A stretch of DNA of 35,420 bases from a virus: positions 1 through 35,420 of IMG/VR virus record IMGVR_UViG_3300025168_000282; one strand, written 5' to 3'. Position numbers and translations under genes: made by a program. Below are positions 1,679 through 5,252 of this stretch, one piece after another. Below the pieces are notes generated by a model. That model saw nothing but the letters and a program-made list of their open reading frames with translations, ran no database searches and was not told where the DNA came from. Position 1 is the stretch's first letter. Every line of letters starts with the position of its first letter.

Positions 1679-2524
1679 TTAAAATTTCTGTATTTCTTTC
1701 GTATAGGCCACGCATAGAACCATTGGCTCCTCAAACGTCGTGGAATAAACAGAAAAGCTAGTATTAACTTCGGGCTCCGACAATGACTTTGTTTGGGTTT
1801 TTATGTCCCTCATCAGCGCTCCATCCTCCTCCAGATAAGAAGAAGGTATACCATAATAATAATGAATATCTTGCGCACCGTTTAGGGCAGATAAGTATTT
1901 TACGTCTGCATCAACCTTTAATGCGGAGACACCAAAAGTAGCAATTCGGCATATTTTATCTGGTTCAATGCTGTTGCTAATAACTGGCTCTGTATGATTG
2001 AAATAATTAACCATTGCCACAGTTGAGGCTATCAAATTACTAACACTTCTCTCAAAATCCTTAATGGATACATCGCCGACCATATCCTCCACCGCCGAGC
2101 GATCAATAAAATAAATTCTCTCGAAAAGTCCACTGCGAGCATATTGTTGTAAAATATTGTGCACTATCCTATCATCACGAAGCTGAGTTTTAGAGCACAT
2201 ACTTCTGTCTGGGGATATGTAAAGGATACTAACCTTTGATCCCTTTAGCTGCTCCAGAACTGTCAAGGCCATACCTGTCATTGGTTCGCCGCCTCCTAGA
2301 ACAAGCACAACATCATCTCCCTCTCTGACACTCCGAAGATATATTGCTAGATCTTCGCCGTCGGCAGCCTCTTCATAGGACTGTATATCCGCCCGTGCCT
2401 CAACAACATAATTACCCTTCGTTGGCAACCCTGAACCTATTTTATATACCCTGTACTCAGGGTATTCTGAAAACTCTTCGGCAACACTACAGCCGGTAGC
2501 TCCAAGACCTATAACTTTTTCCAT
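1679..2524 (-). CDS. Divergent tubulin/FtsZ-superfamily protein (second copy)
   Basis: 281 residues. It opens with a Rossmann-type glycine loop, VIGLGATGCSVAEEF (4-18), in the place of the tubulin/FtsZ T1 loop. A hydrophobic strand then leads into LGGGEPMTGMAL (76-87), which matches the tubulin signature loop (GGGTGSG in classical members) followed by its helix. The next strand KVSILYISPD (97-106) also fits the GTPase core. The product is much shorter than FtsZ (about 380), and the C-terminal half (about 190-281) is divergent. I recall proteins of this type in marine myophages. The ATG comes one base after the polymerase stop; the AGGAGG site lies inside the end of the polymerase gene, so translation is coupled. 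It differs strongly from the FtsZ-like product at 32165-33328. A nucleotide-binding Rossmann protein of another kind is the alternative. Confidence 0.6.
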   Translation of the reverse strand: MEKVIGLGATGCSVAEEFSEYPEYRVYKIGSGLPTKGNYVVEARADIQSYEEAADGEDLAIYLRSVREGDDVVLVLGGGEPMTGMALTVLEQLKGSKVSILYISPDRSMCSKTQLRDDRIVHNILQQYARSGLFERIYFIDRSAVEDMVGDVSIKDFERSVSNLIASTVAMVNYFNHTEPVISNSIEPDKICRIATFGVSALKVDADVKYLSALNGAQDIHYYYGIPSSYLEEDGALMRDIKTQTKSLSEPEVNTSFSVYSTTFEEPMVLCVAYTKEIQKF

Positions 2525-2525
2525 A

Positions 2526-3761
2526 TTATATCGATACCTCCTTTAGCATAGCTAAATTATGTCCCTTACAGATATTTATCTTGAACTCACCAAATTTTGT
2601 TGATGACATTAGTTTTTTTATGTCACCCAAAAGGTGTTCATCCTCGATCGAAAAATCAAGAACAATAGCGTCATGAATAATACAAGATATTTTTGATTTT
2701 GCTCCGAGGGCTCCCAAAAGGTGGTTTATCTTTAGGGCTTGAAGGAGTGTCAGTTCCGCAGTGGTTGACTGTATAATATAATTCAAAGCATGATGCTCAT
2801 CAACATCCTTAATTTCCTTGCGGTAACAAGTATAGACACTTTTACCGTCCCAGTACTTATCCAAGATAGCTTCTTTGTTGTAGAACCCCCTTAAGATCTT
2901 ACCCTCGTCACTGCGTGCTGACGCAGCAGAACCATAAAGCCAAGCAAAAAAAGCGGTCTTCACTCTGTCCCTATCTTGCGTTCCACCGAAAACCTCAGTC
3001 TGGTGGAACAGGTGAATATCTTGTTCCGGCTGGGGCTTGTTAAGTAAACCCATCATCACCCGAGCCTCGGCTCCGTTAAAATCTAGTTCTAAAAAATAAT
3101 CATTATGTGGCACTACCACATCACGCATTTCTTTTCTGAGGGTTAAGACCGGAAAAGAACTTGGTCTCGTCGTAAGTCGGCCTGTCTTTGTACCAAATTG
3201 ATTATATTTAATACAACCTGAAGATCTGGCTATGCTCTCCGCAAATTGTTTTGTTTTATTCCCAGACATATAAACATTCAGGCGTTGATGATCGAGCTTT
3301 AATGGACTGTTGGAGATGTCTTCCAACATCTGACAGACTTTAAGTAGAAAGTCATACCGCTCTGGTCTTTTATAATTCTTAATCACATAATCTGTAATTC
3401 GGTTCTTTACCTCGCAGAGTTCAACAAGGAACCTTTTAGGGGTCAAGTCATAGATGCAGTGTTCGTCACAGTTAACGTTGGCAATCTTAAGCGAGCGGGT
3501 AAAAGCAGACAAACGATCAGAGACATCATTCCAATCATCGAGCAAATATTCTGGGACTACTTGCTCGATTGTTTTATCTTGGATATATAAATTTGCATAC
3601 TCTATGGACTCACGCCCCCGAAGATAAGACGAATATTTCCAAGTCTTTGATAGGTTATCAGGAAAGCTTTCATCATCAAAGATAAGCTTTCCATCACAAT
3701 AAATACCAACACACTCAGATTTGTCATCAAGACCTTGGAATAACAATATGTACTTCTTTCT
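2526..3761 (-). CDS. Family A DNA polymerase, polymerase domain only; unusual start
   Basis: The three catalytic motifs of family A are visible, numbering from the TTG at 3746. Motif A is DFNGAEARV (222-230; metal-binding D222, E227, R229). Motif B is R259-x3-K263-x3-F267-x3-YG (271-272), as in E. coli Pol I. Motif C is HDA (358-360), where HDE is usual. A TGR-L template-binding segment (188-191) and QSTTAE (326-331) also fit. There are about 406 residues and no 3'-5' exonuclease motifs, so proofreading must come from another protein or be absent. No ATG occurs near the start. The frame runs back through R-K-K-Y-I to the TAG that ends the upstream gene, in the same frame. TTG at 3746 with a weak AGAAAGAAG site is the likely start; amber readthrough is the alternative. 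The following tubulin-like gene is coupled to it. Confidence 0.85.
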   Translation of the reverse strand, partial: RKKYILLFQGLDDKSECVGIYCDGKLIFDDESFPDNLSKTWKYSSYLRGRESIEYANLYIQDKTIEQVVPEYLLDDWNDVSDRLSAFTRSLKIANVNCDEHCIYDLTPKRFLVELCEVKNRITDYVIKNYKRPERYDFLLKVCQMLEDISNSPLKLDHQRLNVYMSGNKTKQFAESIARSSGCIKYNQFGTKTGRLTTRPSSFPVLTLRKEMRDVVVPHNDYFLELDFNGAEARVMMGLLNKPQPEQDIHLFHQTEVFGGTQDRDRVKTAFFAWLYGSAASARSDEGKILRGFYNKEAILDKYWDGKSVYTCYRKEIKDVDEHHALNYIIQSTTAELTLLQALKINHLLGALGAKSKISCIIHDAIVLDFSIEDEHLLGDIKKLMSSTKFGEFKINICKGHNLAMLKEVSI

Positions 3762-5252
3762 CTAGTAACTATCTACAATAATATCAGATACTGACTCTAC
3801 CGTCAAGCCAGATAAACTGTACGGACCAATATATTTTTCTTGTGCATATCTTAGAGCCTGATTATACTTCGCCGCTTCAGAGCCAGAAGATGCATCATAC
3901 ACAGCCAGTATAAATTTTATATCTTTTTTGGCATCTTTTATAGTTTTTTCGTTATTTCTTTCGGCTCTTCTTGAATTGTAAAATGACTTAAGAGCCCACT
4001 TAGCTCTATACTGTCCGTTTACTTGAGAAAAAACATCTTCAGGAGCAGGCTGTCGTCGGAATAAGATTCTTCTCGCAGTGTCACAATTAGGCACATTTCC
4101 AATCGAGCGGGCATGTGTGGACAAGACTGGGAAATTCTGTGCATACGTGTTGTAAAAAGCTAACATATAAGAAGCTATAATCTCCATATCTCGTGTCCAA
4201 GTTTCTTGGTAGGATACCTTAAACATGATTTCAAAAACTTTTTCATTATTTGCTTGGTTTTTTATCTCTTGGTATTCTTCGTATCCCGGCCTATACGATA
4301 AGCCGTTTCCAGATGGATAGACATTCAGATGTCTCTTAACCCTACTGAATCCTTCTATTAAAGAAAAGCCATAGTAATCCGGTAAATTAGTATCTTTTGG
4401 TATGACTTCGTCACAATCATCTAGATCATTTTTATTATCAAATGAAGCATTTGCGATTGGTATACCATGCATATATTCTTGCATCGCAGGGTTTGAAACA
4501 TTGGCGACAAGACGCCAAGGTATATTCCTATCAATAGAAAATCCATATTGAGATGCAACTTTTGCAGCTAATTCAAAATTTGCATCTTTAAATTTCTCAG
4601 CCTTGTTAGCATCATCATCATAATCATCACCACTAATTTCTATGGCAAGCCCTGTATTTAAGACCGAAGAATATATACCCTCGATGAAGCCAGAAAAAGT
4701 CAAAGAACCATTTGGATATAAAACAGCCTCTGAAAACTCTGTAAACGCATTCATGAAAGATCCAATACTTCTCACCCTGTTGGAGTTTCTAACATCAGAT
4801 AAATAATTTTCTACGAAAGAAACATAAACGCTATCTAGCATGTAGCCATGATAAGCTGATTGACAACTTTCGTAAGCCTTGTGGATTTGTGGTGCTGCCC
4901 AAGGACTGTCCCTGTGTACTATGTTATTATTGGCCAACTCTCTCATTTTTTCTGCAAAATCTCTCCACGCATCAGCGACGAATCCCATAGCATAGAAAGC
5001 CTCACTCGATTTCGAATATCTAAGTGGCTTTAGTCTTTCTTGGAGAGGATAAACAGCATTTCCAAAAGTGTTGATTTTTCCATAAAATTGGTCAGCGCCC
5101 CAAGTATCGAAAAAGTTCTCTACGAGACCGTCATAAAAAACAGCCTCTCTATAAAAAACTCTCTCTTGGTGGACATCCTTAGATGTGGAACTATTAGAAG
5201 CGTTTGGGAAATATCCCGGAAAATCCTGAGGATTTGTTCTTGCCTGTGTCAT
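3762..5252 (-). CDS. Probable virion/baseplate structural protein, 496 residues
   Basis: I do not recognise a named T4 counterpart, although I recall similar proteins beside baseplate genes in marine T4-like contigs. The N-terminus (about 30-75) is rich in aromatic residues (EAVFYDGLVENFFDTWG), followed by helical segments rich in Tyr, Phe and Asn. There is an acidic patch (DDYDDDANK, about 207-215) and a basic, helical region near the C-terminus. No signal peptide or membrane segment is seen. The ATG follows GAGGG at nine bases, and that site lies in the last codons of the 1031-residue gene, so the two are coupled. Position at the end of the baseplate block suggests a baseplate wedge or periphery role. 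It ends in TAG, directly in frame with the polymerase. Confidence 0.8.
   Translation of the reverse strand: MTQARTNPQDFPGYFPNASNSSTSKDVHQERVFYREAVFYDGLVENFFDTWGADQFYGKINTFGNAVYPLQERLKPLRYSKSSEAFYAMGFVADAWRDFAEKMRELANNNIVHRDSPWAAPQIHKAYESCQSAYHGYMLDSVYVSFVENYLSDVRNSNRVRSIGSFMNAFTEFSEAVLYPNGSLTFSGFIEGIYSSVLNTGLAIEISGDDYDDDANKAEKFKDANFELAAKVASQYGFSIDRNIPWRLVANVSNPAMQEYMHGIPIANASFDNKNDLDDCDEVIPKDTNLPDYYGFSLIEGFSRVKRHLNVYPSGNGLSYRPGYEEYQEIKNQANNEKVFEIMFKVSYQETWTRDMEIIASYMLAFYNTYAQNFPVLSTHARSIGNVPNCDTARRILFRRQPAPEDVFSQVNGQYRAKWALKSFYNSRRAERNNEKTIKDAKKDIKFILAVYDASSGSEAAKYNQALRYAQEKYIGPYSLSGLTVESVSDIIVDSY

Follow-up and report, generated by a model that had tools for sequence, protein, structure and literature searches.

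Genes around the polymerase junction

The window, which is the whole stretch of DNA analysed here, is an IMG/VR virus record of 35,420 bases. The genes and features that meet at the polymerase junction are all located on the minus strand:

1679..2524, minus strand: next gene after the polymerase, 281 aa, FtsZ/tubulin-fold protein with an ATG start (AlphaFold and Foldseek)
2526..3746, minus strand: gene for a family A DNA polymerase of 406 aa (Pfam, PHROG and structure matches)
3744..3746, minus strand: TTG assigned as the start codon of the polymerase (start-type codon conserved in homologues)
3747..3761, minus strand: non-coding intergenic spacer of 15 bases, AGAAAGAAGTACATA, which includes a purine-rich stretch for ribosome binding
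3762..5252, minus strand: upstream gene, 496 aa (its homologues close with TAA, TAG or TGA at the equivalent position)

The polymerase matches the Pfam profile DNA_pol_A (PF00476) with an E-value of 2.1e-15 and a score of 57 bits (cut-off 34.3), and phrog_17 with an E-value of 4e-18. Residues 146-382 show a profile match to the structures of the Taq and Klenow polymerases, and the AlphaFold model (pLDDT 93, pTM 0.90) matches Klenow-type polymerases (Klenow/KlenTaq). The catalytic residues are invariant in 57 homologues, namely D222 in motif A, R259, K263, F267 and Y271 in the O-helix, and H358-D359 in motif C. With a profile score above the cut-off and motifs A, B and C in place, the protein is a member of family A, and it shares the polymerase domain motifs and the Klenow-like fold with other phage family A polymerases (PF00476, phrog_17). 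It differs from full-length Pol I in that it is only 406 aa long and lacks the 3'-5' exonuclease domain. The polymerase of Flavobacterium phage immuto has an ATG start, an identity of about 26% and no N terminus in common with it; this phage was rejected for the comparison of junctions as too distant, with an unaligned N terminus and a record that begins at the polymerase ATG. A literature search returned no paper with a title or abstract on this polymerase or its start.

The 281-aa protein encoded after the polymerase has no Pfam match. Its AlphaFold model (pLDDT 95) has FtsZ and TubZ as top Foldseek matches, with a best E-value of 3e-13 at roughly 16% identity, while the GGGTGTG loop has diverged to LGGGEPMTG. 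Some 50 contigs of related phages carry the tubulin-like gene just 3' of the polymerase, and this gene may represent an undescribed phage tubulin-like family. In 22 dereplicated relatives it starts with a TTG placed within the last polymerase codons, TTGGATAA, which yields an overlap of eight bases (e.g. L036:6223-6230). This overlap suggests translational coupling, and the frequent TTG of the tubulin-like gene may therefore be explained by coding constraint and coupling. Five relatives (L073, L076, L077, L081 and L084) have an extra 280-310 bases, approximately, between the two genes. Further along, a small heat-shock-like gene (Hsp20-like, by eye) is located at 586-1002 on the minus strand of the window, between a gene for a 153-aa protein (1132-1593) and an ssb-like gene. 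A gene of this kind is present in the same slot in L005 (3388-3804), and L004 has an unrelated 115-aa gene instead. On the other side of the polymerase, the 496-aa product has no match in Pfam or PHROG and is, from the position of its gene, probably a virion or baseplate-region protein.

The upstream gene of 496 codons has its stop codon, TAG, at 3764-3762, and the polymerase frame continues in the same frame with AGA AAG AAG TAC ATA TTG TTA TTC CAA (R-K-K-Y-I-L-L-F-Q). Both sequence and coordinates agree with the original prediction, which also placed the first ATG of the polymerase about 140 codons in; counting from the TTG at 3746-3744, residue 140 is the first ATG in frame. This TTG is the sole NTG near the N terminus of the polymerase frame.

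The start position among relatives

A first scan provided four junctions (L002-L005) from relatives that are 60% identical, and the tblastn homology to these begins at the TTG, which is residue 6 of the frame. A profile scan then yielded 80 loci, and the counterpart of TTG 3746 was determined in each of them. The relatives come from metagenomic contigs; after dereplication, 64 of them from IMG/VR remain, or 65 sequences with the window. The codon at the start position is TTG in 30, ATG in 25, GTG in eight and ACT in one of the relatives. With the window included, TTG is found in 31 sequences and an NTG in 64 of 65. In the single ACT case (L045), an ATG stands directly 5' of the ACT. The 25 relatives in which this very codon is a normal ATG, for example L008, L017, L034 and L053, provide the observation that the original prediction had named as speaking against an unusual junction.

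The residues after the start codon are near-invariant, (L/I)FQTLDDK, in which F, Q, L, D, D and K do not vary and the window carries a G in place of the T. Since the relatives were found with patterns taken from this N terminus (FQ[TG]LDDK and ECVGIYC), selection of the sequences accounts for part of this conservation; the start codon was not included in the patterns. At the start position, the dinucleotide TG is fixed while the first base varies, so that leucine, methionine and valine alternate. Leucine at this codon is encoded by TTG in 31 of 31 cases, as opposed to the invariant leucine at codon +5, which is encoded by TTA, CTA, CTT, TTG and CTG. A leucine that is always TTG, next to an internal leucine with five codons, marks an initiation codon. 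In a tree of the polymerase from which the N terminus had been left out, the start codon switches between ATG, GTG and TTG at least 12 times, with at least eight switches between ATG and non-ATG codons. Thus, the first conserved codon is an NTG that exchanges with ATG and GTG, as expected for a non-ATG start.

The amino acids 5' of the start codon are not conserved among the relatives, and in seven of them (L008, L047, L053 and L066-L069) the codon that directly precedes it is a stop. The five codons between TAG and TTG in the window (R-K-K-Y-I) belong to a stretch that had been taken to look like coding sequence. They do not behave as such among the relatives, where the corresponding segment changes in length, frame and sequence and contains in-frame stops, and the spacer at 3747..3761 is for these reasons called non-coding. 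The same comparison bears on initiation at a rare codon 5' of the TTG, such as the ATA at 3749-3747. Initiation at AUA and AUU exists in rare cases, and this ATA directly precedes the TTG. However, several relatives have a stop as codon -1, and the others vary at this codon, while the conserved position is that of the TTG, and we consider a start at the ATA highly improbable.

The spacer contains a purine-rich stretch, AGAAAGAAG, which ends six bases before the TTG at normal spacing. No run of at least four bases matching the SD sequence TAAGGAGGTGA was found between positions -18 and -4 in the window, and the earlier description of a weak ribosome site is fair in this respect. Across the family, purines account for 78-95% of the bases at positions -6 to -9 from the start, with 95% at -9, and SD-like words of at least four bases are present in 43 of 65 sequences, as compared with 28 expected by shuffling. 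The family as a whole thus has a purine-rich, SD-like stretch at normal spacing. UUG and GUG starts of bacteria and phages likewise consist of an NTG behind a purine-rich site and are swapped with AUG or GUG between relatives. One such case is the adenylate cyclase of E. coli, which starts with UUG (Reddy et al. 1985, as cited in a passage of PMC5622118).

Termination and initiation at the junction

The identical frames on both sides of the TAG, with no further stop between them, would allow some ribosomes to read through the codon at 3764-3762 and produce a fusion of about 908 residues (496+1+411) that joins the 496-residue protein to the polymerase. A fusion of this kind presupposes that the polymerase frame is in phase with the upstream gene, but the frame relation varies: of 84 junctions, 40 have frame 1, 30 frame 2 and only 14 frame 0. 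The upstream stop also varies in type (TAA, TAG or TGA), and several upstream genes run past the polymerase start, with a stop codon as far as 56 bases into the polymerase gene. In L002-L005, the order is in every case TAG, 14 bases and TTG, which places the upstream gene in another frame, and a TAA in the polymerase frame, two codons ahead of the TTG, closes that frame. An ARAGORN search of the window for tRNAs found none, and hence no suppressor tRNA. These sequence comparisons rule out read-through as the general mechanism and make its occurrence at the junction in the window extremely unlikely. The shared frame is instead attributed to coincidence, which has a chance of one in three and is seen at 14 of the 84 junctions. 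General reassignment of TAG had already been judged unlikely, a view borne out by several other genes in the window that end in TAG, which still serves as a gene end, and by the lack of a suppressor tRNA.

A sequencing or assembly error that placed a TAG inside a single long gene would also leave the same frame on both sides. However, the homologs of the upstream gene have stop codons of their own at the equivalent position, and the homologs of the polymerase begin with an initiation codon just past that stop. An error is thus not needed to explain the TAG, and we attach almost no weight to it.

These results suggest, with a probability of about 0.97, that the polymerase is a separate protein that starts at the TTG at 3746-3744, after a normal TAG and a spacer of 15 bases, and that the shared frame is a coincidence. 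The upstream gene would terminate normally at 3764-3762, and the purine-rich ribosome-binding site in the spacer would direct ribosomes to start with fMet at the TTG. Translation would yield a family A DNA polymerase of 406 residues, M-LFQGLDDKSECVG..., as a separate protein. The AlphaFold model begun at the TTG is confident throughout, with a pLDDT of 82 for the first ten residues. From the sequence comparisons we infer that initiation in vivo takes place at this codon. Of the two mechanisms proposed in the original prediction, initiation at TTG is strongly supported by the relatives, while read-through of the TAG is contradicted by differing frames and by overlaps. The junction is ordinary and the missing start is only apparent.

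Start-codon bias and polymerase dosage

The start codons of the polymerase were compared with those of other genes at the same dereplicated loci. Non-ATG starts were found in 38 of 63 polymerases (the ACT relative is left out), none of 57 ssb genes, none of 40 recA genes and two of 39 upstream genes, in a count that preferred an ATG within 12 codons and was thereby biased towards ATG in every gene, including the comparison genes. Compared with the UUG and GUG starts of bacteria and phages, non-ATG starts are unusually common in this polymerase family. Fisher tests of the enrichment gave p-values of 1e-14 against ssb, 2e-11 against recA and 6e-9 against the upstream gene, which are descriptive, as the tests ignore relatedness and the counts are non-independent.

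A weak start would be expected to hold the synthesis of the polymerase low. According to passages of PMC5622118, switches from AUG to UUG are rare and selected against across prokaryotes, and AUG starts accompany higher abundance among the abundant proteins of E. coli. In light of these passages, the weak polymerase start is consistent with selection for low dosage. We tentatively consider it possible, although rather unlikely, that this group of marine phages keeps and repeatedly retunes a weak start (TTG or GTG) so as to limit the synthesis of the polymerase as compared with that of ssb and recA in the same gene cluster. Drift with compensation, instead of selection for low dosage, may also lie behind the weak start.

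The comparison closes a false lead, as there is neither recoding nor a missing start at the polymerase junction. The start of the gene should be annotated at 3746 rather than at the first ATG; a gene caller that prefers ATG would shorten the polymerase by 139 residues. The conserved start provides a clean comparative marker of the true N terminus in an under-annotated family of phage polymerases. The contrast in start codons between the polymerase and ssb or recA leads to a small, testable hypothesis on dosage control, and if this were true, the choice of start codon would be an evolvable dosage dial for replication.
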